NCBI GenBank assembly: GCA_913042885.1
Contig: CAJWLW010000110.1
Span: forward strand, 1-12,860
Source: an uncultured Lentisphaeria bacterium
Lineage (GTDB): Bacteria > Verrucomicrobiota > Lentisphaeria > JABSQK01 > CAJWLW01
Direction of reading: 5' to 3'
DNA: 12,860 nt
Shown here one piece after another: positions 1 to 10,493 of the stretch. The stretch's first letter is position 1; every line of letters starts with the position of its first letter. Made by a program: the position numbers and the translations under genes. The notes below the pieces were generated by a model. It was not told where the DNA came from and did no database searches. It saw nothing but the letters and a program-made list of their open reading frames with translations.

Positions 1-231
1 ATCGGCAGCCCGCCGGCGAAGATCAACGGCAACCAGTACCACGACGGCACCAGCGTCGCGTACTTTCTCGACCTGGGATCCGGTGTCGACGATTTCGGAT
101 CCGAACGTAACGCGAATGAATTGTACGTATTCGATGATTATGCGTTTTTCGTCGATGCCGAATCGACCGCTGCTGCGATTGTGAAAGCGAAGGCCGGCGA
201 AATCCGCAACGGCAAGGATGAGGTGGAGTAG
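1..231 (+). CDS. C-terminal end of an unidentified protein (5' truncated)
   Basis: Frame 1 is open from the window edge to a TAG at 229-231 and gives 76 residues. The tail is acidic and rich in Asp, Gly and aromatic residues (for example QYHDGTSVAYFLDLGSG and ELYVFDDYAFFVD) and ends in a charged stretch rich in Lys and Glu. I do not recognise a family. The composition would suit the end of an exported or surface protein, but the N-terminus is missing and no signal, anchor or catalytic motif can be seen. The gene runs in the same direction as the next one, separated by 143 bp that hold a heptad repeat. It is called coding because of the open frame to the edge, codon use like its neighbours, and the lack of a convincing competing frame. 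Confidence 0.6.
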   Translation: MGSPPAKINGNQYHDGTSVAYFLDLGSGVDDFGSERNANELYVFDDYAFFVDAESTAAAIVKAKAGEIRNGKDEVE

Positions 232-295
232 CGATGACATGCGCTCAGCGATAGCACGGCACCAGAAAGAGAGATGACGAGTGAGCTTCTCTTGC

Positions 296-316
296 ACCTG
301 AAACCTGAACACTGAA
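296..316 (-). repeat. Three degenerate heptads, TTCAGGT-type
   Basis: Read on the minus strand, 316 to 296 is three consecutive seven-base units: TTCAGTG, TTCAGGT, TTCAGGT. The same sequence in another register is the GGTTTCA unit found again at 2131-2144 and 2203-2223. The array lies in the 143-bp gap between the first partial gene and the membrane-protein gene. No ORF covers it convincingly. Confidence 0.7.
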
Positions 317-374
317 TATTCTCCCATGCATTCACCGGCGCTGACCGAATCGGCGCCTACCGGGGAAGAGACTT

Positions 375-821
375 TTGAAAGAGTATCAGAATCGCAGTAC
401 CGGGTTGATCGGACGTACGGCCTGGATACTGGTCTTCGTGATCATCGGTTGCGAAGTGGCGGTGATGCTGTGGCTGCCGAAAACGATGGTAGCGCAGGAG
501 GTCTGGGGTATCGAGGTTGCCCGACAGCGAACGATCCGTCTGCTTGATCAACAGCGCAGCCGTATCCGTCGCTGGAAATTCGCCAGTGATGCCGGCACCC
601 GCGAGGAGATGACTGTCGTGCTCGTTTCACAGGAGCTCGATGTGGCGGCACAGTACCTCCGCAATCACGGCAAGTATCTGAACTGGCGACAGAACGACGA
701 AATTTTCGAGGACCTGTCGATGTACCAGGGCCTTCTGGACAAGCTTGAACCGGGCACGCTGTATCCGGACGCAGAGGAACTCGACATCGATGAGCCGCTG
801 CGAACCTTGCTGGAGGAGTAA
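375..821 (+). CDS. Unknown single-pass membrane protein, 148 aa
   Basis: No known family is recognised. Residues about 15-35 (ILVFVIIGCEVAVMLWL) form one strong hydrophobic segment after a short basic N-terminus (KEYQNRSTGLIGR). The remaining ~110 residues are soluble, charged and probably helical, ending in the acidic tail ELDIDEPLRTLLEE. The positive-inside rule suggests the N-terminus is cytoplasmic and the C-terminal domain periplasmic; this is inference. The start is TTG at 375, the furthest upstream in-frame start, preceded by a purine-rich GGGGAAGAG site at 361-369. The stop codon TAA shares one base with the ATG of the next gene (TAATG), so translation is probably coupled to the HAD phosphatase. 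Context hints at an envelope role, but no function can be assigned. Confidence 0.75.
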   Translation: MKEYQNRSTGLIGRTAWILVFVIIGCEVAVMLWLPKTMVAQEVWGIEVARQRTIRLLDQQRSRIRRWKFASDAGTREEMTVVLVSQELDVAAQYLRNHGKYLNWRQNDEIFEDLSMYQGLLDKLEPGTLYPDAEELDIDEPLRTLLEE

Positions 822-1333
822 TGGCCGCCGCTGTCTTTGTCGATCGCGACGGTACGATTATCGTCGACAAACATTATCTGGCAGATGCCGATGGTGTCGA
901 ACTGCTGGCGAATTCCGGCGAGGGGTTGCGGACAATCCAGGACCTGGGGTTCTGCCTGGTTCTGGTCACCAATCAGTCAGGTGTCGGTCGCGGTTGGTTC
1001 GATAAGGACACGGTCGTGGCACAGCATCTTCGGTTGCGGGAATTGCTGGCTCCGTACGGTGTGCAGTTCGCAGCGATCAAGGTCTGCCCGCACGTGCCCG
1101 ACGACGGTTGTGAATGTCGCAAACCGAAACCGCTGATGCTGATCGAAGCCGCGCAGGAATTGAAACTGGACCTGGCCGCGTCATTCATGATCGGTGACAC
1201 GCCTGCGGACGTCGAGGCCGGCCGAGCTGCCGGGTGCCGAACAATTTGCATCGGTACCGAGGCGTCCGCCGATCACCAGGCAAACGATTTACTCGCCGCC
1301 GCCGAGATTATTGGCAGCGGCACCCACTCGTAA
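821..1333 (+). CDS. gmhB: HAD phosphatase, D,D-heptose 1,7-bisphosphate phosphatase-like
   Basis: A compact histidinol-phosphatase/GmhB-type HAD hydrolase of 170 residues, close to the family length of 180-190. Motif I is DRDGT (nucleophile D8, acid/base D10), motif II is TNQSG (50-54), the motif III lysine lies in CRKPKP (about K101 or K103), and motif IV is GDTPADVEAG (D126, D130). The structural zinc loop C89-x-H91...C97-x-C99 is complete and is typical of GmhB. GmhB removes the 7-phosphate from D-glycero-manno-heptose 1,7-bisphosphate in ADP-heptose synthesis for the LPS inner core. The alpha or beta anomer preference, or a histidinol-phosphatase role, cannot be settled here. The start has a good GGAGGAG site at 813-819 and overlaps the preceding stop by one base. 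No other heptose genes are in the window. Confidence 0.85.
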   Translation: MAAAVFVDRDGTIIVDKHYLADADGVELLANSGEGLRTIQDLGFCLVLVTNQSGVGRGWFDKDTVVAQHLRLRELLAPYGVQFAAIKVCPHVPDDGCECRKPKPLMLIEAAQELKLDLAASFMIGDTPADVEAGRAAGCRTICIGTEASADHQANDLLAAAEIIGSGTHS

Positions 1334-1352
1334 TCCCGATCAGGAGGTCCAG

Positions 1353-2123
1353 ATGAAGAACTGCGTTACGCTCGTTACCGGAGCGGGTAGAGGGATCGGC
1401 CGGGCAATTGCCGTGGCTATGGCCGCCGCCGGCGCGCGGGTCGTTGGCACGGCGCGCAGCCAGGATCAGCTCGACAGTCTCGCCGCCGAGATTACCGATG
1501 CCGGTGGCCAGGCGTTCACTGTCGTCGATGATCTTGCGGACTCTGCAGCGCCGGCTCGCATTCATGCGGCCACAATCGAACACTGGGGCGCTGTTGAAGT
1601 GCTCGTCAATAATGCCGGGATCGGCAGCAGTCAGAATCCGAAACCAATTGTCGATTTCGACGATGATTTCTGGCACCTGACAATGGCTGTCAACGTCACT
1701 GCGCCCTATCTGCTGACCAAGCTGGTACTGCCCGCGATGATCGAAAAGCAATGGGGGCGTATCATCAATATCTCATCGATCAATGCGAAGGTTGCAGGGG
1801 TGCACACGTCCGCCTACACGGCCAGCAAACACGCGATTACCGGACTGACGAAAGCGACAGCAGTGGAAGTTGCGGCGCAGGGTATCACCGTCAACGCTGT
1901 CTGTCCCGGAACCACCGAATCGTTTATGAACAATAAGCGACTGGAATACGACGCGCAGCGTCTGGGCACAACGATCGAGGAACTGGAAGCCAAAGCTTCG
2001 CCGCTGGAGCGCCGGCTGGCTCCCGATGAAATCGCAGCCCTCGCCGTGTTCCTCGCACAGGATCAAGCCCGTGCGATCAACGGCCAGTCGATCAACGTTT
2101 GCGGCGGCACGGTGATGGTGTGA
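1353..2123 (+). CDS. Short-chain dehydrogenase/reductase (classical SDR)
   Basis: A 256-residue classical SDR with all family marks: nucleotide-binding TGAGRGIG (9-16), NNAG (86-89), catalytic N114, S142, Y155 and K159 (YTASK), the PG motif at 185-186, and a typical C-terminus ending INVCGGTVMV. It should oxidise or reduce a hydroxyl or keto group with NAD(P)(H). The overall style resembles 3-hydroxyacyl-CoA or 3-oxoacyl-ACP reductases and 3-hydroxybutyrate dehydrogenases, but the substrate cannot be read from sequence. The start at 1353 is fixed by AGGAGG at 1342-1347; the open frame runs upstream to 1194, overlapping the phosphatase, and that part is not SDR-like. It follows the HAD gene by 19 bp and is probably cotranscribed. 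Confidence 0.92.
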   Translation: MKNCVTLVTGAGRGIGRAIAVAMAAAGARVVGTARSQDQLDSLAAEITDAGGQAFTVVDDLADSAAPARIHAATIEHWGAVEVLVNNAGIGSSQNPKPIVDFDDDFWHLTMAVNVTAPYLLTKLVLPAMIEKQWGRIINISSINAKVAGVHTSAYTASKHAITGLTKATAVEVAAQGITVNAVCPGTTESFMNNKRLEYDAQRLGTTIEELEAKASPLERRLAPDEIAALAVFLAQDQARAINGQSINVCGGTVMV

Positions 2124-2129
2124 ATACTA

Positions 2130-2223
2130 AGGTTTCAGGTTTCGCAACAACTAAATAGGGGTGCCAGTGCCGGCCCCACGTCCCCTGACAACTTCTTTCC
2201 CCGACACCTGAAACCTGATACCT
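2130..2223. repeat. Inverted pair of GGTTTCA-type heptads between convergent genes
   Basis: The left arm 2130-2144 is AGGTTTCAGGTTTCG. The right arm 2202-2216, read on the minus strand, is AGGTTTCAGGTGTCG, so the arms match at 14 of 15 positions with 57 bp between them. The right side continues to 2223 as a third heptad (AGGTATC on the minus strand). The intervening DNA contains a smaller GC-rich fold (GGGG.GCC...GGCCCC near 2157-2176). The element fills the 107-bp space between the SDR stop (+) and the thioesterase stop (-). It may end transcription from both sides, but there is no clear T-tract. Confidence 0.65.
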
Positions 2224-2230
2224 TTGCCCC

Positions 2231-2680
2231 CTACGCTGACGTGCCTGGTACCGCGATCCGTTGCAGGGCTGTCCGGATCCGTGTCGGTACTGCTGTCGAC
2301 TGCTTCGTTACGCGGTTGACGAAGACATGTACAAAATAACCGGTCGCAGCAGGTTCTTCGCTGCCTTGACGGAACAGGCCGATTTCGTAGCGTACACTCG
2401 AGCGCCCGAGTTTGGCGACGCGCAGCCCGGCGTCGATGTGCTCGGGAAACGTCAGTTCATGCAGGTACCGGCACATGCTCTCGGCGCAAATGCCGATCAC
2501 GTCGTCGTGGACCGGGTCGAGTTCGCCTTCGCCCATGAGATACTCGCAGATCACCGTGTCGAAATATGAGTAATAGATGACGTTGTTGACGTGATGGTAC
2601 ATGTCGACATCCTTCCAGCGCGTGGGGATCACGAGGAAATGGGAATAGTCGTCGCGGCGTTCAACTGTTGATTTCGACAT
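2231..2680 (-). CDS. Hotdog-fold acyl-CoA thioesterase (4HBT/YbgC-FadM type)
   Basis: A 149-residue single hotdog domain. The N-terminal motif RWKDVDMYHHVNNVIYYSYF (21-40) matches the Asp-x-Asp...His-Val-Asn-Asn signature of YbgC/FadM/4-hydroxybenzoyl-CoA thioesterases, with D24 or D26 as candidate catalytic acid and H30-V31-N32-N33. The central strand ELTFPEHIDAGLRVAKLGRSS is also typical. It probably hydrolyses acyl- or aroyl-CoA esters in the cytosol; the substrate is unknown. The start MSKSTVERRDD is chosen because the open frame upstream to 2824 is not thioesterase-like. The best SD-like sequence, AGGA, lies about 13 bases upstream, so initiation may be weak. The gene is divergent from the GAF operon and convergent with the SDR. 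Confidence 0.88.
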   Translation of the reverse strand: MSKSTVERRDDYSHFLVIPTRWKDVDMYHHVNNVIYYSYFDTVICEYLMGEGELDPVHDDVIGICAESMCRYLHELTFPEHIDAGLRVAKLGRSSVRYEIGLFRQGSEEPAATGYFVHVFVNRVTKQSTAVPTRIRTALQRIAVPGTSA

Positions 2681-2736
2681 CCGTTGGGTTCGTTCCTGAG
2701 TGTGAAAGTGATGTGTAGGGCATTGCGATCGACAGC

Positions 2737-2764
2737 ACGATAGGCCCGCTGCCGCTGCTTTCAA
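2737..2764 (-). promoter_or_regulatory. Candidate sigma70-type promoter for the thioesterase
   Basis: On the minus strand, TTGAAA (2764-2759) is followed by a 16-bp spacer and TATCGT (2742-2737). That is five of six consensus bases at -35 and four of six at -10, including the key A and final T. Transcription would begin near 2730, giving a leader of about 50 bases. It is back to back with the plus-strand promoter at 2789. Confidence 0.45.
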
Positions 2765-2788
2765 GAATGTTCGTTTCCTTACAGTCGC

Positions 2789-2818
2789 TTGACAGGTGGC
2801 AACAGTTTCCTGTAACTT
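2789..2818 (+). promoter_or_regulatory. Candidate sigma70-type promoter for the GAF-Nudix operon
   Basis: A perfect TTGACA lies at 2789-2794. Either TGTAAC (2811-2816, 16-bp spacer, four of six) or TAACTT (2813-2818, 18-bp spacer) can serve as the -10 box. TAACTT is also the -10 candidate in front of the ATP synthase operon. The predicted start near 2825 leaves about 75 bases of leader, which holds the hairpin at 2835-2866. Confidence 0.5.
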
Positions 2819-2834
2819 GTGCACTTGAATGATC

Positions 2835-2866
2835 CATGAATCTCACCCATCGGTGCGATATTCATG
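2835..2866 (+). promoter_or_regulatory. Inverted repeat/hairpin in the GAF operon leader
   Basis: CATGAAT (2835-2841) is perfectly complementary to ATTCATG (2860-2866). Inside, ATCG (2849-2852) pairs with CGAT (2856-2859) around a GTG loop, so the right side is continuous and the left side carries a 7-base bulge (CTCACCC). The fold can form 11 base pairs. It lies between the predicted start of transcription and the AGGAA site at 2889-2893. It could be an RNA element or a DNA operator; the sequence does not say which. Confidence 0.4.
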
Positions 2867-2900
2867 AGTTGCCTGGGACAAAATTACGAGGAAAATACCG

Positions 2901-4019
2901 ATGGATGTTGACAGGACAACCGTAGAGTTGGACGACGACCAACCGAAGCCTCTGACTTCCGAGCGCTACGAATTCTACGATCGGTTGACTGCCATGCCCC
3001 GCATCTCCCGGGCGATCGGCTCCGAACTCGATCTCGACGCCATACTCTTCGAAGTCGTCAAAGAGCTTTCCAGCATCCTCAAGGCGGCGCACGCCACGCT
3101 GTTTCTCGTCGATACCGAGACCAATGAGCTATGGTCCAAAGTGTTGCTCGAAGGCAACGAACTCAAGGAGATCCGCCTGTCGCTGGGCGACGGCATTGCC
3201 GGGCATGTCGCCGCCACCGCTCGGCCTCTGAACATTCAGGACGCCTACAACGATCCGCGATTCGATTCGCAATATGACCAGGTCAGCGGCATCAAAACCC
3301 GCACCGTCATGTGCTGCCCGGTGCAGACCGCTAACGGCCAGGTCGTTGGTGTCATCGAAGTGCTCAACAAGGACAAGGGCTGTTTTACTCTGGCCGACAT
3401 GATCGTCGTTGAGACTATCCAGCCGAGTCTCGGAATCGCCATCGAAAACGCTGTACTCTATCAGTCGCTGCTCAGCCAGAACAAAACCCTGGAGCGCACC
3501 CAGGACGCCTTGCAGGCACGCATGAGGGAACTTGATCTGCTCTACACGCTTGAAAAAGTCATCGCCAGCCACCACGAAAACAATGACGACTTGATTCGTG
3601 AAATGCTGCGTGAAGCGGCTGTCAGCATTGGTACCGGTGTCATAATGTGTGTCCTTGCCGACGGCCCGACGGCCCAGGCCCATGTCGCCGATTGCCGAGA
3701 TGATCCTGTGTTCACAACGCTGCAGACCAAACCCGTCGGGAAACTGCTGGAGGTCCTGCAGCACGGTAAAGCCTGGTCGGCGGAAACAGTCGAAACAATG
3801 CTCGGCGACGGACTGGACGGCTATATTTTCGACGACGACCTGATCGTCCTGGTGTCGTTGCCGGAGGCGGCATTTGCGGAGGATTCCGGGAAGTCGGGAG
3901 CGTTGGTAGCCCTCAGCCCGCGCCACCACTCGGTGTTGGAACCGGAAGCCTACGAAAAGATGATGTCCCTGATTGCATCCCAGATCGCCCGTGGTCTGAA
4001 CATCGCCGAGGCCAACTGA
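2901..4019 (+). CDS. Tandem GAF-domain sensor protein without output domain
   Basis: A 372-residue cytosolic protein. After an acidic N-terminus, residues about 43-187 form a clear GAF domain (HATLFLVDTETNELWSK, LSLGDGIAGHVAATARPLNI, CPVQTANGQVVGVIEVLNK). It ends in N156-K157...F162...A165-D166, a near match to the NKxnFx3DE motif of cyclic-nucleotide-binding GAF domains, with Ala replacing the usual Asp. Residues about 186-222 are likely a helical coiled-coil linker (LLSQNKTLERTQDALQARMREL). Residues about 225-368 look like a second, diverged GAF fold. No kinase, cyclase, phosphodiesterase or DNA-binding domain follows, so any signal must pass to a partner or be made by dimerisation. The start is supported by GAGGAA at 2888-2893. 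The stop lies three bases before the Nudix-ferredoxin gene, implying cotranslation and a possible functional link. Confidence 0.88.
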   Translation: MDVDRTTVELDDDQPKPLTSERYEFYDRLTAMPRISRAIGSELDLDAILFEVVKELSSILKAAHATLFLVDTETNELWSKVLLEGNELKEIRLSLGDGIAGHVAATARPLNIQDAYNDPRFDSQYDQVSGIKTRTVMCCPVQTANGQVVGVIEVLNKDKGCFTLADMIVVETIQPSLGIAIENAVLYQSLLSQNKTLERTQDALQARMRELDLLYTLEKVIASHHENNDDLIREMLREAAVSIGTGVIMCVLADGPTAQAHVADCRDDPVFTTLQTKPVGKLLEVLQHGKAWSAETVETMLGDGLDGYIFDDDLIVLVSLPEAAFAEDSGKSGALVALSPRHHSVLEPEAYEKMMSLIASQIARGLNIAEAN

Positions 4020-4022
4020 CGC

Positions 4023-4817
4023 ATGCCGAATTCACAAGCCTTCGGCGTCGTGCCCATACGGCGCACGCCCGAGAGTTTCGAGTACCTGCTGATCCAGCAT
4101 CAGGCCGGACACTGGGGCTTTCCAAAAGGCCATGCCGAAGGTGAGGAGACGCCCTTTGAATCCGCCCGCCGCGAGTTCGAGGAAGAGACCGGCATCCTGG
4201 ATTACCGGATTGACGAGAGCGTCTGCTTCAGTGAGTCTTATGTTTTCGAGAAGAAGGGGGTGACGAAGGAAAAAACCGTCGTCTATTTTCCGGCCGTCGT
4301 GCACAGCTTGGAAGTGACCGTACAGGTGGCGGAAATCGGCGATTATGCCTGGCTGTCGCATGCACAGGCGCGCGAGCGCATCAGTTTCGAGGAAAGTCGA
4401 CAGTTGCTGGACGAAGCGAACCAGTATTTCCAAGACGGCATGACGGAGTCTGCCGCCGGCCTGCAACGTAAGGTTGCCGCCTTCGGAATCGACAAAATCC
4501 AGCGTCATATCTTCCTGTGCTGCGACCAGACCAAGCCGAAATGCTGCGACAAAGCCTGCAGCCTGGCGTCATGGGAGCACCTCAAGTCGCGGCTTACGGA
4601 GCTCGGGCTTGATCGTGCCGGGGGCGTTTACCGCACCAAGGCGAACTGTCTTCGCATCTGCGAGCAGGGTCCGATTGCCCTCGTCTATCCCGAAGGCACC
4701 TGGTACCATTCCTGTACACCTGCTGTGCTCGACCGCATCATCCAGGAACACCTGATCGGCGGCTTGCCGGCGGCAGAGTATGTGATCACGGAGCACCCGC
4801 CGAGCAATCCAGCCTGA
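4023..4817 (+). CDS. Nudix hydrolase fused to a thioredoxin-like [2Fe-2S] ferredoxin domain
   Basis: Two domains in one 264-residue frame. Residues 1-140 are a Nudix hydrolase with a perfect box Gx5Ex7REUxEExGU (G36, E42, R50-E51, E54-E55, G57). The preceding [12 protein letters not shown] resembles asymmetric dinucleoside tetraphosphate (Ap4A) hydrolases, so it may cleave a nucleoside di- or polyphosphate. Residues about 160-256 are a thioredoxin-like [2Fe-2S] ferredoxin: [39 protein letters not shown] and TWYHS. The four ligands expected from Aquifex-type ferredoxins map to C166, one of C174/C175/C179, C209 and C213. Helices at 113-158 form the linker. M140 is an in-frame internal Met that could also release the ferredoxin alone. 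It lies three bases after the GAF gene and before a terminator. The redox domain may control hydrolysis or simply travel with it. Confidence 0.9.
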
Positions 4818-4822
4818 ATGAT

Positions 4823-4849
4823 TCGCGATTATTGTCGCGATTTTTTTTT
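4823..4849 (+). terminator. Rho-independent terminator of the GAF-Nudix operon
   Basis: TCGCGA (4823-4828) and TCGCGA (4835-4840) form a six-pair GC-rich stem with a six-base loop, followed at once by nine T residues (4841-4849). It begins five bases after the Nudix-ferredoxin stop codon. Confidence 0.85.
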
Positions 4850-4879
4850 GGCACCCCCGGCCTCAGGCGTTCGAACGAC

Positions 4880-4909
4880 AGCGGCATGCCCCACAAGGGG
4901 ACCGCCGCT
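4880..4909 (-). other. GC-rich hairpin after the DUF4202 gene
   Basis: AGCGGC (4880-4885) pairs with GCCGCT (4904-4909), and CCCC (4889-4892) pairs with GGGG (4897-4900) around ACAA. About 11 of 13 positions pair, counting one wobble. It lies 20-50 bp beyond the minus-strand DUF4202 stop, so it may protect or end that transcript, though it lacks a T-tract. It is followed on the plus strand by the perfect palindrome TTGATATCAA (4909-4918). Confidence 0.4.
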
Positions 4910-4928
4910 TGATATCAAATGCCCCTGC

Positions 4929-5513
4929 CTACTCTTCGCCCAGCGCCTGCTCGACCAACTCCTGCGCCTCCGGCGCCAGCTCGAGCTGCAGCGCTGCTGC
5001 CTGGCCGCGCGGTGACATTTTGCGCCAGGTCTTGCGCACGACCTCGATGACTTTGGCGGCATCGTGCTGCGGCAGGAAGTGTTCAAAGTAATGCTCCAGG
5101 AAGACCAGGCAGGCGACGTCCTCGAGGGTCTGTGTTTCGGGGTCCGATCGCAGGTTTTCCTTGCGGATCAATGACTGCACGCGTGCGATCATGGGGACGT
5201 CATAACCGGCTTCGGCCAGCAACTCCCCGGCTTTCTCGGCGTGAAACACCGCGAGCTCACGGCGCCAGGCGTGGTAGCCAGTCCGGCCCACAGGATAGGT
5301 GTCGCGGCGGATCTCCCAGCGTCGCAGATGCTGCGCCCGCACCGCGAGCTTCAGTGCCTCGCCCGCTTCCGGTTCCAGACGATCGAGCCAGGCCGTCATC
5401 CGCTGCGAGTACAGCAGCTCCCGCGGCACGGCATCGCCGTCTGCATTCTCGATACGCGGGTCAGCAGAATTGGCGGTATCGGTCAAAAGAATCGCATCGT
5501 CGAAGAGAGACAT
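4929..5513 (-). CDS. DUF4202 family protein
   Basis: A 194-residue soluble protein that I recognise as DUF4202 from its conserved blocks: RELLYSQRMTAWLDRLEPEA, RAQHLRRWEIRR, YPVGRTGYHAWRRELAVFHA, RVQSLIRKENLR, ETQTLEDVACLVFLEHYF and RKTWRKMSPRGQAAAL. The function is unknown. The conserved H62, H91 and E131-D132 recall, loosely, metal-binding HD-type phosphohydrolases; that is speculation from spacing. Length and both ends fit the family, so the gene appears intact. The ATG start has no clear Shine-Dalgarno site. It is separated from the glycosyltransferase by 111 bp and seems to form its own leftward unit, facing the GAF-Nudix operon end to end. Confidence 0.88.
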   Translation of the reverse strand: MSLFDDAILLTDTANSADPRIENADGDAVPRELLYSQRMTAWLDRLEPEAGEALKLAVRAQHLRRWEIRRDTYPVGRTGYHAWRRELAVFHAEKAGELLAEAGYDVPMIARVQSLIRKENLRSDPETQTLEDVACLVFLEHYFEHFLPQHDAAKVIEVVRKTWRKMSPRGQAAALQLELAPEAQELVEQALGEE

Positions 5514-5561
5514 GGCAGATAATCCACATTAGATTTTCCCAGGTGCACGAGAATTGCAAAA

Positions 5562-5589
5562 CTAATACTACTGATCGGATTCGGTGCAA
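5562..5589 (-). promoter_or_regulatory. Weak candidate promoter for the DUF4202 gene
   Basis: On the minus strand, TTGCAC (5589-5584) is followed by 16 bp and TATTAG (5567-5562). The match is partial (three and four of six), but the placement gives a leader of about 42 bases and the region is locally AT-rich. The same TTGCAC -35 variant precedes the amidase gene at 10376. Confidence 0.3.
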
Positions 5590-5624
5590 CCTGATCGCCG
5601 AAGGTGCCGTCGGGGCGTTCTACG

Positions 5625-6716
5625 TTATTTGCGAGTGGGATGGCTTGCGAGAATCGCGCTGATTTCTCCGGCGTGTCGCGGCAGTGAGAATGTTTCGGCG
5701 TACGCCATCGCTTCCGTCATCTCAGGCGGCTCGGCGAGCGTCTGTCCGATGGCGTTCGCGATGGCCGCAGGCTGTGCTTCGACAATCGCCGCACCTGCTC
5801 GACCGCCCATGGTTTCTTCCGGACCGCCGCCCCCGGCGATGACGACCGGCGTACCGAGCCCGAACGCTTCGAGGGTAGTGCGCCCGAACGGTTCGCCATC
5901 GGCTACTGACACCAGAACCTCCGCTTCGCGAATGACCGGGTACGGGTTCGGTTGAAAACTGAGGAATCGCACGTTGTCGGGCGCCTGTTGCCATAGCTGC
6001 TCCTCGTAGCGCCGACCGTCATCGTCCCTGGCACCACCGACAACCAGCGCGGTGAACGGCTGCCCTGCGGCTGCTTCGAGAAACATCGCGTGGCGTTTCC
6101 ACTCGACCATGTCGGCAATTAGCACGACGCATGGGCCGTCGGGCAGCTCAAACTTCCGACCGGCGTCGAACGCTTCCGCCTGCACGCGAATGTCCGGCCA
6201 GTCGAAACCGTTGCGGACCGTCGTCATTTTCGCCTGCAGCTCGGTGGGGTACTGCCCGCGTTGAAAATTCGAAATCGTGATTGTCTGCAGGGCGCGCGTG
6301 ACCACCTGCCTCAACACCTTTTGCGGACTCCGTATATCGCGGTGGTGAAAGATCAGCGGCACCTTGTTCGGCAACCCCAGCGTACACAGCAGGCCGGAGC
6401 GAATGCCGTTGGCATAGACCAGGTCGATATCGCGGGTGTCGAGCCAGTCGCCGAGGATCGGCTTGGTGTTGCGGGTATCCGCCCAAGCTGACAGCAGACC
6501 GCGCCAGGTCCGCGGCCAGTTGCGGGTGGGGATCATGCCGGTGTCGATGCCCATGCTGCGCGCCTGCGTGGCGAGACCGGTATCGGAATCGTCGGCCGTC
6601 AAGAGGTAGGGATCGATGCCATAGGCGCTGTCGCGTTTGAGTTCGGACAACAGGCCGAAGAGGCTGCGCTGCGCGCCCCCGGTGAACGGCGACGTGTCGA
6701 TGAACAGGGCCCGCAT
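5625..6716 (-). CDS. GT4-type (GT-B fold) glycosyltransferase
   Basis: A 363-residue retaining glycosyltransferase of the GT4 kind. The N-terminal half has FIDTSPFTGGAQRSL (6-20), the usual glycine-rich acceptor loop. The C-terminal half has the donor-binding elements: MVEWKRHAMFLEAAA (203-217), VVGGARDD, VRFLSFQPNPYPVIREAEVLV (249-269) and the E-x7-E pair in GEPFGRTTLEAFGLGTPVV (E275, E283). It should move a sugar from a nucleotide donor onto a glycan or lipid acceptor at the cytoplasmic face; donor and acceptor are unknown. The chosen ATG at 6716 lies one base after the purD stop (TGACATG); an in-frame start 66 bp upstream would overlap purD and adds nothing family-like. Proximity to waaA suggests LPS or another surface glycan. 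Confidence 0.9.
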   Translation of the reverse strand: MRALFIDTSPFTGGAQRSLFGLLSELKRDSAYGIDPYLLTADDSDTGLATQARSMGIDTGMIPTRNWPRTWRGLLSAWADTRNTKPILGDWLDTRDIDLVYANGIRSGLLCTLGLPNKVPLIFHHRDIRSPQKVLRQVVTRALQTITISNFQRGQYPTELQAKMTTVRNGFDWPDIRVQAEAFDAGRKFELPDGPCVVLIADMVEWKRHAMFLEAAAGQPFTALVVGGARDDDGRRYEEQLWQQAPDNVRFLSFQPNPYPVIREAEVLVSVADGEPFGRTTLEAFGLGTPVVIAGGGGPEETMGGRAGAAIVEAQPAAIANAIGQTLAEPPEMTEAMAYAETFSLPRHAGEISAILASHPTRK

Positions 6717-6717
6717 G

Positions 6718-7977
6718 TCACGCCAATCGCGCAATGGCGCGATGGGCAATGTCTTTGCGGTAGAAGGCGCCGTCCCAGGCAATCTGTTGCGTGGCTGCGT
6801 ACGCTGTGTCTGCCGCGGCTTTGACGTCGGTGCCGGTCGCGGTTACGCCGAGGACGCGGCCGCCGGCGGTGACGATGTCGTCTCCGCTGCGTTGTGTGCC
6901 GGCGTGGAAAACAATCGCGCCATTGGTTTCAGCGGCTTCGAGGCCGGAGATGACTTTGCCTTTTTCGTAGCCGCCGGGATAGCCTCCGGAGGCTAGCACG
7001 ATGCATACAGCGGGCTCTGGATTCCACCCGAACTCGAAGTCCACCAGGCGATTTTCGATGGTGGCCAGCATCGCTTCGGCCAGGTCGCTTTTCATGCGTA
7101 TGCAGATCGGCTGACACTCCGGATCGCCGAAACGTACGTTGAACTCGACCACCCGCGGGCCGGTCGCCGTCGCCATGATGCCGACGTAGATGACGCCGCG
7201 ATAGTCTAAGCCGTCGGCCTGACACCCGGCCAGGAACGGGTTGAGGATGCGCTCGTGGATTTGCGCCCACAACGCGTCATCGACTACTGGCGCCGGTGAG
7301 TAGGCGCCCATGCCGCCGGTGTTCGGGCCCGTGTCGCCGTCGCCGACGCGCTTGTGATCCTGCGACGAGGCCAGCGGCTTGATGGTGTCATGATCGACGA
7401 AGGCGAAGATCGAGGCTTCCTCGCCGACCATGTATTCCTCGACCAGCACCGATTCGCCGGCAGCGCCGAAGGCACCGCTGAAACAGTCTTCGACGGCGGC
7501 GATTGCGGCGGCTTCGGTCTCAGCCACGGTGACGCCCTTGCCGGCGGCGAGCCCATCAGCCTTGATGACGATCGGGGCGCCATTGTCGCGGATACAGGCG
7601 ATAGCATCGGGTGCGTTGGTGAATGATTGTGAGTCGGCGGTGGGTATGCCGTGGCGGTTCATGAAGTCTTTAGCGAACGCCTTGCTGCCTTCGAGCTGGG
7701 CGGCCGTGCTGTCAGGCCCGAAAATGGCCAGGCCGCGACCGCGGAATTCGTTGACGATGCCGTCACAGAGCGGGGCTTCCGGTCCGACGACGACCAGGCC
7801 GACACCGTTGGCTTCGCAGAAATCGCCGAGCTCCGCAGCCGGCGTGTCGATGCATTCGATGCCGTGCATGCCGGCGTTGCCGGGCGCGCAGTAGACGCGA
7901 TCGACGGACGGGCTTTGATTGAGTTTCCAGGCGAGGGAATGTTCCCGGCCGCCGCTGCCAATGACCAGTGCGTTCAT
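6718..7977 (-). CDS. purD: Phosphoribosylamine-glycine ligase (GAR synthetase)
   Basis: PurD joins 5-phosphoribosylamine and glycine with ATP to give glycinamide ribonucleotide, step two of purine synthesis. The 419 residues match the family length (about 420-430). Visible marks are GSGGREH (7-13), PGNAG (32-36), the ATP-grasp segment VIKADGLAAGKGVTVAETE (137-155), LVEEYMVGEEASIFAF (178-193), GDGDTGPNTGGMGAY (212-225) and EFNVRFGDPE (278-287). The start at 7977 gives MNALVIGSGG with AGGA about nine bases upstream. The frame stays open 53 codons further up, but that part is translated heptad repeat (CHLPLATC-like) and is not used. The gene is coupled to the glycosyltransferase by a one-base gap, an unusual partner for a purine gene. 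Confidence 0.96.
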   Translation of the reverse strand: MNALVIGSGGREHSLAWKLNQSPSVDRVYCAPGNAGMHGIECIDTPAAELGDFCEANGVGLVVVGPEAPLCDGIVNEFRGRGLAIFGPDSTAAQLEGSKAFAKDFMNRHGIPTADSQSFTNAPDAIACIRDNGAPIVIKADGLAAGKGVTVAETEAAAIAAVEDCFSGAFGAAGESVLVEEYMVGEEASIFAFVDHDTIKPLASSQDHKRVGDGDTGPNTGGMGAYSPAPVVDDALWAQIHERILNPFLAGCQADGLDYRGVIYVGIMATATGPRVVEFNVRFGDPECQPICIRMKSDLAEAMLATIENRLVDFEFGWNPEPAVCIVLASGGYPGGYEKGKVISGLEAAETNGAIVFHAGTQRSGDDIVTAGGRVLGVTATGTDVKAAADTAYAATQQIAWDGAFYRKDIAHRAIARLA

Positions 7978-8031
7978 ATCGGTGTCCTGTTGCGTAATGG
8001 AACGATTTGATGTGAGATCTGGGTGCCCGAC

Positions 8032-8060
8032 ACAATATCTGAGATGGCGGCAAGTGGCAA
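8032..8060 (-). promoter_or_regulatory. Candidate purD promoter with its -35 box inside a heptad repeat
   Basis: On the minus strand, TTGCCA (8060-8055, five of six) is followed by exactly 17 bp and TATTGT (8037-8032, four of six with the key A and final T). Transcription would begin near 8025, leaving a leader of about 47 bases. The TTGCCA is part of the first two heptads of the array at 8049-8099. Confidence 0.45.
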
Positions 8061-8099
8061 GCGGTAAGTGGCAAATGGTAATAGTGGCAAGGGGCAAGG
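8049..8099 (+). repeat. Seven degenerate GGCAAGT-type heptads
   Basis: From 8049 five units run in phase: GGCAAGT, GGCAAGC, GGTAAGT, GGCAAAT, GGTAATA. After a 2-base slip, GGCAAGG occurs twice (8086-8099), followed by a run of G. Every unit starts with GG. The array occupies the middle of the 234-bp gap between the waaA stop (8212) and the purD start (7977). The rest of the gap, 8100-8211, shows no gene and no strong terminator. Confidence 0.85.
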
Positions 8100-8211
8100 G
8101 GGGGCAGGCTGCAGCAACGCAATAAAAAATTGGCACTGGGCGGTTCGGATAGATGCCCGAGCCGACCCTGCCACAGACGACGAGCCAGGTCGGACGAGGC
8201 AGGCAGCGGCC

Positions 8212-9528
8212 TTACAAAGCGTTGAAGATCTCGATCGTTTTCGCCATGGCACCGCGGTTGTCGATGACGGCACGGCGGGCGTTGGCGCCCAGTTTTTCGC
8301 GTGCGCCGGGGTCAGCGAGCAGGCTTCGTACGTTGGTTAGAAGGTCTGTTTCGTCGTCGACCTCGACAGCGGCTTCCGCCTCCCGGAAGACGCGTGCGAC
8401 GTCGCGGAAATTGCTCATGCCCGACCCGAAAATGACCGCTTTGCCCAGCATTGCCGGCTCGATGATGTTGTGGCCGCCGTCGTTACCGGCCAGACTCTTG
8501 CCGACAAAAACGATGTCGGAAACGGCGAGAAAGGACATCATCTCACCAGTGGTGTTGCCGATGAGAACGGGGGGGATTCGGGATTCGGGATTCGGGATTT
8601 CGTATTTGGGATTTCGGATGTTGGTCACGAGATGGGCGGTGAGACCGAGTTCCTGCAGCGTCCGTTGGATTTCGGTGCCGCGTTCGGCGTGACGCGGAAT
8701 AATGAGCAGCCGGAGGTTCGGGAAATCAGCGACCAGGTCCCGGTAAATGCGCCCGACGATTTCGTCTTCGCCGGGGTGGGTGCTGGCGGCGGCCAAGCGG
8801 ACATGCTCGCCGTCGCCGAATATCTGCTCGAGCAGCTTGCCGTCGAGTTGCGGGACGCTGTTCGGAACGATGTCGAACTTCATCGTACCACAGGTGCCCA
8901 GCGCCGGCAGCTCGCCGGCGACAGCGGCGAGCTTGCGGACATCTTCGGGGGTTTGTACGGCGATCATGGAGAACTTCGAGAAGATGTCGCGGAACAGCCA
9001 TCTGTGCTTGAGATAGCCTCTCGCGGACGAGTCAGAGACACGGCCGTTGATCAGGCCGACGAAGATGTTTCGGCCGGCAACAGTACTGACCAGGGTCGGC
9101 CAGATCTCGACTTCGACGATCAACAGGGCGGCTGGCTCCACGGCGCGCAGCGTCGAAGCGATGCATGGATAGAAGTCGAGCGGGCAATAGATGGGAACGA
9201 CGCCGTCTGGGGCGTTGGCGCGCACGATGGCCTGGCCGGTGGCAGTGGTTGTGGAAACGACGAATTGCCGGCCGGGTTCCCGGTCAAGCCAGTATTTGAT
9301 GAACGGCAATGCCAGTTGCGCCTCACCGACGCTGACCGCATGGATCCAGATGGGATCCTTGAGAGCGCGCAATTGCGACTTCTTGGCGCTGGAGATGAGA
9401 CCGAAGCGTTCGCCAAAGCCGTCGACGAAGTTGCCGCGCTTGACGAGTTTGCACAGGTAGACTGGAAAATACAGAAGGAAAGCGAAGGGGAAGAACAGAT
9501 TGTAAACGATCAGTGCGAGTTTGACCAT
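8212..9528 (-). CDS. waaA: 3-deoxy-D-manno-octulosonic acid (Kdo) transferase
   Basis: WaaA (KdtA) transfers Kdo from CMP-Kdo to lipid A precursor at the inner face of the cytoplasmic membrane. The protein has 438 residues, near the family's ~425. An N-terminal membrane anchor (LALIVYNLFFPFAFLLYFPV) is followed by GERFG (39-43, E40 being the probable general base by analogy with Aquifex WaaA), IHAVSVGE (62-69), VEVEIWP (138-144), GTMKFD (214-219), STHPGEDE (249-256), IPRHAERG (277-284) and GGHNIIEPA (351-359). Residues about 303-319 (TNIRNPKYEIPNPESRI region) are encoded by a heptanucleotide repeat and sit just before the conserved VLIGNTTGEM, a variable loop in other WaaA proteins. The ATG at 9528 overlaps the amidase stop by 19 bp, has no clear SD site and is probably translationally coupled. 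Confidence 0.96.
   Translation of the reverse strand: MVKLALIVYNLFFPFAFLLYFPVYLCKLVKRGNFVDGFGERFGLISSAKKSQLRALKDPIWIHAVSVGEAQLALPFIKYWLDREPGRQFVVSTTTATGQAIVRANAPDGVVPIYCPLDFYPCIASTLRAVEPAALLIVEVEIWPTLVSTVAGRNIFVGLINGRVSDSSARGYLKHRWLFRDIFSKFSMIAVQTPEDVRKLAAVAGELPALGTCGTMKFDIVPNSVPQLDGKLLEQIFGDGEHVRLAAASTHPGEDEIVGRIYRDLVADFPNLRLLIIPRHAERGTEIQRTLQELGLTAHLVTNIRNPKYEIPNPESRIPPVLIGNTTGEMMSFLAVSDIVFVGKSLAGNDGGHNIIEPAMLGKAVIFGSGMSNFRDVARVFREAEAAVEVDDETDLLTNVRSLLADPGAREKLGANARRAVIDNRGAMAKTIEIFNAL
8573..8621 (+). repeat. Seven GGGATTC-type heptads inside waaA
   Basis: Plus-strand units from 8573 are GGGATTC three times, GGGATTT, CGTATTT, GGGATTT and CGGATGT, with no phase break over 49 bp. The array is wholly inside the minus-strand waaA frame, where it is read as about 16 residues containing IRNPKYEIPNPESRIPP. 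Since seven is not a multiple of three, the frame survives only because the total insertion with its flanks is. Confidence 0.9.
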
Positions 9529-10337
9529 GTCACGGCTTGCTGCATCGACTGCAGCGAGGGCACGCGCTGGCGCGCGTCAGTGATCGCCTGGTGCGACAGT
9601 TCGCTGCGCAGGCAGACTTCGTCTTCGTCGGCGGCGGCCAGAACTTCGCCCCACGGCGCGACCATCATCGAATGGCCGTAGGCCAGCACCTGCATCGGTT
9701 CGTTCATGCCACACTGATTGACACCGGCAACGTAGCACTGGTTCTCGATGGCCCGGGCGCGCAGGAGAATTTCCCAGTGGGCTTTGCCGGTCATATGGGT
9801 GAACTCGGCGGGGCACAGCATGAGATCGGCGCCGGCATATACACGGTAGAGCTCCGGGAACCGCAGGTCGTAACAGATCGTCAGGGCGATCGTCCAACCG
9901 TTCAAGGTGAAGGTTGCGGGGTTCGCACCGTGGGCGAAACGCGATGTTTCGTCGATTGAGTTGGTGCCGGTGAACAACTGGAACAAATGGATTTTTTCGT
10001 AGGTGGTGACAAGTTCTCCGTCGGCGCCGATGACCAGGGCGGTGTTGTAGATACCGTTTTCGCGCGTAACCTGGACGCTGCCCCATACCGTGCAGATACC
10101 AATGTCGCGGGTGACGCTGCCGAGGGTGTCGAGATGCTGCTCTAGCGTCGGTGGATCGTATCCAGCCACTATGAAATCGCCGCGGTAGATGGCGTTTTCG
10201 GGCACCACGACAAGGTCGGTGCCGGCGGTATCGGTGTTGTCGAGCAACCCGCGGATGCCGGCGACATTCTGTTCGGGCTGGTCATTGCCACAAGTCTGGC
10301 AGAGGATGACGGACAGGTTTTCGGAAGGGGTGTTCAT
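9510..10337 (-). CDS. Nit-type carbon-nitrogen hydrolase (amidase)
   Basis: A 275-residue nitrilase-superfamily protein with the complete Glu-Lys-Cys triad: E47 in VVVPENAIYRGD, K115 in TTYEKIHLF and C155 in LTICYDLRFPELYR. LLRARAIENQCYVAGVNQCG (191-210) and YGHSMMVAPWG (220-230) place it close to Nit1/Nit2-like amidases, which hydrolyse deaminated glutathione or omega-amido acids (metabolite repair). The exact substrate cannot be decided. The ATG at 10337 is preferred over an in-frame TTG at 10376, which adds 13 non-family residues, although the SD site is poor for both. It starts the leftward cluster and its end overlaps waaA by 19 bp. Confidence 0.92.
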   Translation of the reverse strand: MNTPSENLSVILCQTCGNDQPEQNVAGIRGLLDNTDTAGTDLVVVPENAIYRGDFIVAGYDPPTLEQHLDTLGSVTRDIGICTVWGSVQVTRENGIYNTALVIGADGELVTTYEKIHLFQLFTGTNSIDETSRFAHGANPATFTLNGWTIALTICYDLRFPELYRVYAGADLMLCPAEFTHMTGKAHWEILLRARAIENQCYVAGVNQCGMNEPMQVLAYGHSMMVAPWGEVLAAADEDEVCLRSELSHQAITDARQRVPSLQSMQQAVTWSNSH

Positions 10338-10347
10338 TACAGTCTGG

Positions 10348-10376
10348 AATCTATTGTGAGTAGGGCCAATGTGCAA
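10348..10376 (-). promoter_or_regulatory. Weak candidate promoter for the amidase-waaA unit
   Basis: On the minus strand, TTGCAC (10376-10371) is followed by 17 bp and TAGATT (10353-10348). The start of transcription would fall only a few bases before the ATG at 10337, giving an almost leaderless message, which fits the lack of an SD site. The hexamer match is modest. Confidence 0.3.
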
Positions 10377-10493
10377 CCGGACGCTGGACAGGCCGGCACG
10401 GATGTTTCAAATCCAAACCGTAAACCTCCCCGCGGCAGAGCCGGACAACGGCATGTATTTTAGTGCATTCTCGTCTGTCGGCTTTTCCATGCC

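Follow-up and report, generated by a model that had tools for sequence, protein, structure and literature searches.

A heptad tract within kdtA

The DNA analysed here, contig CAJWLW010000110.1 of an uncultured Lentisphaeria bacterium (12,860 nt; hereafter the window), carries a kdtA (waaA) gene for 3-deoxy-D-manno-octulosonic acid (Kdo) transferase, and within its coding sequence lies a tandem tract of 7-base units (Table 1). By domain (PF04413, Glycos_transf_N; expect value (E) 1.5e-49) and by match to PDB entry 2xci (E 3.1e-23) the product is identified as KdtA/WaaA, with Kdo transfer as its predicted activity. An AlphaFold model of the protein (mean predicted local distance difference test, pLDDT, 89.6) has WaaA 2xci as its best fold match, with template modelling (TM) scores of 0.54-0.65.

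On the coding strand the units are CCGAAAT, CCCAAAT, ACGAAAT and three copies of CCCGAAT, followed by a run of seven C residues (C7) that may serve as a second slippage site; on the plus strand the tract appears as GGGATTC/GGGATTT. We scored period-7 runs by self-comparison at lag 7 (match +1, mismatch -1.5). The run at 8573-8619 reached 25, and none of 300 first-order (dinucleotide) resamplings of the window contained a run of 15 or more; this array is far beyond chance. The tract is free of stop codons in all three registers. In the model, residues 305-319 (model numbers are KdtA numbers minus one) form a coil between a helix at 300-304 and a strand at 320-322, and most KdtA proteins of ~50% identity have a shorter and variable loop at this position. 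Positions 8569-8603 of the plus strand, the template for kdtA, hold at least four GGG runs at 4-base spacing, by sequence a canonical G-quadruplex motif.

Table 1. Positions of kdtA, the heptad sites and purD in the window
Feature	Position	Strand	Remarks
kdtA/waaA, 3-deoxy-D-manno-octulosonic acid transferase	8212..9528	-	438 aa, open in the window; PF04413, 2xci
Heptad tract within kdtA	8576..8617	-	6 units; 7 bp (one unit) shorter in L001
Seven-C run (coding strand)	8569..8575	-	directly 3' of the tract; also seven in L001
GGCAAGT-type heptads	8049..8101		4-5 units, 2-base break, 2 GGCAAGG units; between kdtA and purD
purD	6718..7974	-	3' of the 8049 array; Pfam GARS domains
Three degenerate GGTTTCA-type heptads	296..316	-	ACCTGAAACCTGAACACTGAA; weak alone
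Left member of inverted pair	2131..2143	+	GGTTTCAGGTTTC; one GGTTTCA unit in L001
Right member of inverted pair	2206..2222	-	ACCTGAAACCTGATACC; between convergent SDR and thioesterase genes; absent in L001

Among relatives found, L001 stands nearest; it is a contig of the metagenome-assembled genome (MAG) Lentisphaeria bacterium ETNP2_MAG_64. Its PurD is 95% identical to that of the window, and its DNA aligns with window positions 2-2819 at 90% and 3946-10382 at 91%. In L001 the tract consists of CCGAAAT and four copies of CCCGAAT before C7, one unit fewer than in the window. Between the common flanks (CAT, tract, C7) there are 52 nt in the window and 45 nt in L001, and the gene measures 1317 and 1310 nt, respectively, a whole-unit difference of 7 bp read from DNA, albeit between sequences that are just ~91% identical. 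As 7 is indivisible by 3, a change of one unit shifts the kdtA frame: the L001 frame ends at 327 aa, soon after the tract, and the C-terminal half is open in another frame. Nei-Gojobori estimates for window versus L001 gave nonsynonymous (dN) and synonymous (dS) divergences of 0.031 and 0.119 for the 906 nt 5' of the tract and of 0.061 and 0.233 for the 354 nt 3' of it. With dN/dS at ~0.26 on either side, the downstream half has not been in decay for long; it appears intact in its other frame and subject to purifying selection.

Across 197 genomes of the class, three consecutive GGGATTC units occur in a single genome (the sister genome G001), there in kdtA only, and in none of the other 196. 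A single kdtA locus was found in G001, which also encodes LpxC.

Open and shifted alleles among relatives

A protein search for KdtA, in which 8000 candidates were scored and 4546 proteins found, yielded four sequences (P0001-P0004; among the best 120 of the 4546) that are 90-98% identical to the window protein and vary in loop length. P0004 matches L001 KdtA without a single difference over 303 N-terminal and 114 C-terminal residues. At 431 aa, with a loop (NIRNPESRIPPV) shorter than that of L001, it has a coding length of 1296 nt including the stop, which is 14 nt, or two heptads, under that of L001 and in frame; this whole-unit difference is calculated from protein length only, between alleles that are 100% identical beyond the tract. 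For P0002 (436 aa), protein length implies 6 nt fewer than in the window, as would fit one unit fewer and one added base. P0005, at 61% identity, carries DPKSEIRNPKSE at the loop position, which a 7-base repeat would encode.

We also searched for free C-terminal pieces, using the C-terminal 126 residues of L001 as the query, and obtained 5 proteins from 23 candidates. One of them, P0121, is a free piece of 109 aa that starts MMAFLAVSD and is 100% identical to L001, such as the shifted allele would yield; it is represented by 3 member sequences and 11 contigs, of which the longest has 98,435 bp. The other four are distant (47-55%); their contigs measure 636-1,323 bp, and they resemble fragments cut off at contig ends. 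Open and shifted forms thus both exist within the species of L001; for the lineage of the window only the open form is known.

The tract therefore has the features by which a simple sequence repeat (SSR) contingency locus is recognized: units in tandem within an open reading frame (ORF), a unit length that is not divisible by 3, whole-unit differences in copy number, and a unit number that alters the open frame (438 aa in the window, a stop at 327 aa in L001, 431 aa in P0004).

A candidate contingency locus

The Kdo transferase gene probably contains, at 8573-8621, a heptanucleotide contingency (phase-variation) locus. During replication, strands would slip by whole 7-base units (slipped-strand mispairing), and one unit gained or lost would move the second half of kdtA in or out of frame. 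Because the tract encodes a coil and has no stop in any register, in-frame lengths should be tolerated, the loop growing or shrinking while the enzyme still works (ON), and all remaining lengths should truncate the protein (OFF). The truncated form would retain the N-terminal domain but little of the conserved portion of the C-terminal domain, the one that in WaaA binds cytidine monophosphate (CMP)-Kdo according to the title of PDB entry 4bfc. That the tract is a length polymorphism which opens and closes the gene is well supported; that it constitutes a reversible, selected switch is less so. Slippage as the cause, reversibility and an effect on lipopolysaccharide (LPS) are what we infer from the alleles. 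A larger claim, that a marine lineage of Lentisphaeria possesses a reversible heptad switch at the first core step of LPS synthesis and that some of its cells carry lipid A lacking Kdo and everything beyond it, is possible, although we lean slightly against it.

Several points weigh against a switch. Every sequence is metagenome-derived and tandem repeats are prone to mis-assembly; P0004 and P0121 are known from protein records alone, and their contigs may stem from overlapping samples. No free C-terminal piece of the window, P0002 or P0003 type was found among the 5 proteins from 23 candidates. KdtA is essential in Escherichia coli, so a frequent OFF state would be surprising. Meningococcus is reported to be functional without kdtA (PMC5953494).

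The strongest competitor, though we judge it unlikely, is that the L001 allele is a recent, irreversible pseudogene produced by one replication slip in a tract that is mutable and under no selection for switching. The free C-terminal piece is known for the species of L001 only, on 11 contigs against the 1 listed for the open P0004, so that the shifted form could be mostly fixed there; moreover, dN/dS averages selection across a long divergence and does not discriminate against a recent pseudogene. The open P0004, identical to L001 beyond the tract, nevertheless places both forms in one species, and P0002 and P0004 differ in loop length yet retain the frame.

Less probable again is an assembly artefact, in which the tract was collapsed or expanded in a low-coverage MAG. 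L001 has a coverage of 4.3 (record title), and a perfect repeat of ~30 bases may confuse small k-mers. The tract should nevertheless fall under the usual short-read length, and the free C-terminal piece recurs on 11 contigs, one of them as long as 98 kb. We attach very little probability to continued expression of the shifted allele, whether through polymerase stutter or ribosomal slippage at C7 that partly restores the frame or through pieces that act as a split enzyme. C7 directly follows the tract in both the window and L001, and the C-terminal piece can start at its own ATG (P0121); no direct evidence speaks for such expression, however, and the C run of P0003, judged by protein only, is seemingly interrupted. 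The reading that we prefer for the kdtA tract is thus the contingency locus. This frame-switching tract was not among the observations of the sequence-only reading of the window, which had proposed instead that GG-anchored heptads at four loci arise by one process.

The other period-7 sites in the window

Lag-7 runs are indeed present at all four places, with very unequal strength: against the score of 25 at 8573 stand scores of 9 (296-316), 9.5 (2200-2223), 11 (8049-8081) and 9.5 (8083-8101). Resampled windows contained on average 0.113 runs of at least 9 and 0.0067 (2 in 300) of at least 11; the 8049 array is therefore probably beyond chance, and the 296 and 2200 runs, each taken singly, are weak. 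Five runs in the window exceed the rate in 956 kb of a sister genome (0.256 per 12.86 kb at a score of at least 9), a comparison for which the window itself had been chosen for having runs. In the same 956 kb, period 7 lies among several others at this threshold (period 10, 0.282; period 14, 0.269; period 4, 0.229); for runs of at least 15 it comes first (0.040; next 0.027), on very small counts.

The 8049-8101 site, with about seven heptads in the window and about two units (CAAGTGGCAAGTGG) in L001, appears to be a local expansion from a seed upstream of purD. Two consecutive GGYAAGY units were found in none of the 6 genomes of the order; on this count, and on the 1 of 197 for GGGATTC, both the GGCAAGT and the GGGATTC arrays look like local, single-locus expansions. 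The 296-316 heptads have equal length in L001 and differ by point changes only. What had been read as one array at 2130-2223 is instead an inverted pair, two reverse-complement types facing each other, in place of which L001 has one GGTTTCA and no pair. By their units, both this pair and 296-316 are assigned to a GGTTTCA-type heptad family. The four sites of the window are not one kind of thing.

Nor does a shared anchor unite them. GG or CC, taken cyclically, occurs in 66% of random window heptads, and three of three units would carry it by chance with a frequency of 0.29; the common GG is thus near chance. At 8573 one unit is CGTATTT, so that the GG is not exempt from degeneracy there. Inverted GGTTTCA-type pairs within 250 bp, capable of forming hairpins, were seen at window 2130-2220, at L125 13189-13283 and in L184, L185, L188 and L189.

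The gene set of the window is ordinary. Pfam assignments comprise a HAD-like hydrolase, an SDR protein, a thioesterase, a GAF protein, a NUDIX hydrolase, DUF4202, a glycosyltransferase, purD, kdtA and a carbon-nitrogen hydrolase, after which what we take to be an ATP synthase cluster apparently begins. The GAF-domain gene (2901-4019) is mostly absent from L001: window positions 2820-3945 are gone, ~21 bases bridge the flanks, and only the final ~74 bases of the gene are left. The product of 4023-4817 is a NUDIX hydrolase, the only family that Pfam reports for it, with a cysteine-rich C-terminal part that we presume to resemble a thioredoxin-like 2Fe-2S ferredoxin.

The GGTTTCA family and period 7 across the class

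The pattern GGTTTCRGGTTTCRGG occurs in 23 of the 197 genomes, with 669 overlapping matches against 3 for a reversed-pattern control. Ten genomes hold nearly all of these: G057 (137), G059 (130), G005 (120), G058 (112), G025 (39), G075 (34), G013 (24, those listed falling almost entirely in one array), G001 (19, at 10 places), G056 (16) and G011 (13); the remaining 13 have 1-5 matches each. Within the order to which G001 and G005 belong, the other 4 genomes have none. The GGTTTCA-type family is real but patchy in the class, and to this extent heptads are a genuine theme: G001 has arrays at 10 places, and some other genomes carry them too.

In G001 the two orientations are nearly balanced (10 and 9). 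We compared 300-base flanks all against all (E 1e-4), and 8 of the 10 G001 places share no flank with each other or with other genomes. One unit at many non-homologous sites, the hallmark of short tandemly repeated repetitive (STRR) sequences, is thus seen in G001 and less cleanly in G005, G057 and G058. Several G005 arrays have common flanks, and many arrays in G057 and G058 are bordered on one or both sides by identical stretches of 60-105 bp; a reading of the flanks as unrelated therefore does not hold outside G001. In G057 the array directly precedes an ORF beginning ATGGCAGAAAGC, and the unit number differs between copies. A longer interspersed element thus carries the array in G057, and copying of a longer element explains part of the spread in G057 and G058. 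Varying numbers of GGTTTCA heptads within copies of longer repeats were seen in L212, L218 and L219 (G057) and in L227, L229, L236 and L237 (G058). In G057 the heptads are immediately followed by a ribosome-site-like GGAGAG and an ATG, and perhaps form the leader of a transposase gene, where transposase is a guess. Homologous sites show little overlap among the G057, G058 and G059 samples.

Seven of the 8 G001 places lie within or border the gap between two long ORFs, with shorter or unsupported ORFs overlapping some; the eighth (L161) is inside a 492-aa ORF that lacks a Pfam match. These flanking ORFs were called mechanically, and 4 of the 10 scanned have a Pfam family above the cut-off. Both orientations occur within 250 bp in 1 of 3 clusters of the G001 sample, 4 of 18 in G005 (where half of the stretches had been chosen for matches), 1 of 6 in G058, 0 of 5 in G057 and 0 of 3 in G059. 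In L172 (G005 C76) a GGTTTCA array runs straight into a GGGTTCA array, so that the unit changes along one tract. Read cyclically, GGTTTCA is TTTCAGG, which among the literature matches listed appeared mainly in work on plant telomeres, probably by coincidence. TTTCAGG is a telomere repeat of Genlisea. No bacterial repeat of the GGTTTCA unit, or of three rotated or complementary forms, was found among the literature matches listed (titles and abstract beginnings).

We also asked how heptads compare with neighbouring periods, counting arrays with a score of at least 14. At periods 6, 7 and 8 there were 1, 6 and 0 in the G057 sample, 1, 5 and 0 in G058 and 1, 6 and 2 in G059, three genomes chosen for richness in the GGTTTCA unit; in these samples period 7 is the commonest of the periods not divisible by 3. 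The corresponding counts were 5, 3 and 2 in the G001 sample and 5, 6 and 0 at 79 other loci from many groups, and ten G005 stretches chosen regardless of matches (85 kb) held no array of any period from 4 to 14. Heptads thus fail to outnumber hexads in G001 (3 versus 5) and in G005 (none), a result that in these two genomes refutes the single-process proposal by its own criterion, and do outnumber them in G057-G059: they are a real, patchy feature.

A link of heptads to a reverse transcriptase had also been suggested. RVT_1 matches occur in 89 of the 197 genomes and in 5 of the 10 with at least 10 GGTTTCR matches (G005, G011, G013, G057 and G059); none was found in G001, G025, G056, G058 or G075, draft genomes in which misses are possible. 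With half of the richest genomes lacking a match, no reverse transcriptase need be invoked. That a single templated or register-bound synthesis makes all heptad arrays is scarcely credible: the GGTTTCA arrays at 8 G001 places do share a unit with no detectable flank, and heptads do lead the non-triplet periods in G057-G059, but GGGATTC and GGCAAGT look like single-locus expansions, the RVT_1 match is missing from those five genomes, the GG anchor is near chance, and the G057 and G058 arrays ride in longer repeated elements.

Most heptad units met in the wider survey contain GG or CC by an informal tally. Among them are two inverted GGGACTC arrays ~105 bases apart in Wenzhouxiangella (L074 11266-11306 and 11411-11441) and a long GGGTGAC array in an Oceanospirillales MAG (L031 1305-1373), whose units gradually give way to TGGTGAG. 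A related Victivallales genome has a different unit, with TCTAACC-type heptads (L003 2267-2310 and 7308-7333).

Relation to known systems

Cyanobacterial STRR sequences are dispersed heptad arrays with a patchy distribution and a unit that differs from GGTTTCA. The TAACTGA repeats of Beggiatoaceae (PMC4679880) are likewise dispersed and patchy heptad arrays of a different unit. PMC4692102 reports G-rich heptads (GGGAATC / GGGGA(C/T)T) to be abundant in Xanthomonas and Nostoc, mentions heptads in Calothrix, and cites evidence that heptads are generally in excess, along with a proposed connection to the segment of DNA held by the polymerase. The kdtA tract resembles these repeats in its G-rich units, with at least four GGG runs spaced 4 bases apart. 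They are dispersed and mainly non-coding, whereas GGGATTC sits at one coding place in G001 and is absent from the other 196 genomes; it does not belong to the GGGNATC family.

A closer likeness is found in Haemophilus influenzae, for which PMC2651432 describes heptanucleotide SSRs, some within ORFs (hmw1A in strain PittAA; a homologue of TonB-dependent receptors), where a change in number shifts the frame. Those are adhesin and receptor genes of a host-adapted species with 8-14 units in the ORF; the kdtA tract has 5-6 units read from DNA and lies in a core LPS enzyme of uncultured marine Lentisphaeria. The same gene is involved in Neisseria, where phase variation of kdtA is predicted through a poly-G tract (PMC5953494). 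That tract, a G8-G10 homopolymer, lies at the 3' end and leads to extension or fusion of the protein, whereas the heptads described here are mid-gene and would truncate it. By analogy with these SSR loci the kdtA tract would work in a known way, and what is new is its position in the gene and the kind of host. Among the matches listed in the open-licence literature (titles and abstract beginnings), none described a kdtA heptad switch or phase variation in Lentisphaerota.

Simple-repeat phase variation has mostly been studied in host-adapted pathogens, which account for nearly all of the literature among the matches listed. The GGTTTCA-type arrays add a further heptad family of patchy distribution, and part of its spread is linked to longer repeats. 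For kdtA, environmental sequence data from an uncultured ocean bacterium show a gene in both its open and its shifted form. KdtA acts at the root of LPS, and, if the proposed switch is real, a phase-variable Kdo transferase would amount to an on/off switch for the whole of LPS, for example against LPS-binding phages, operating outside the host-adapted pathogens in which such switches are mostly known.

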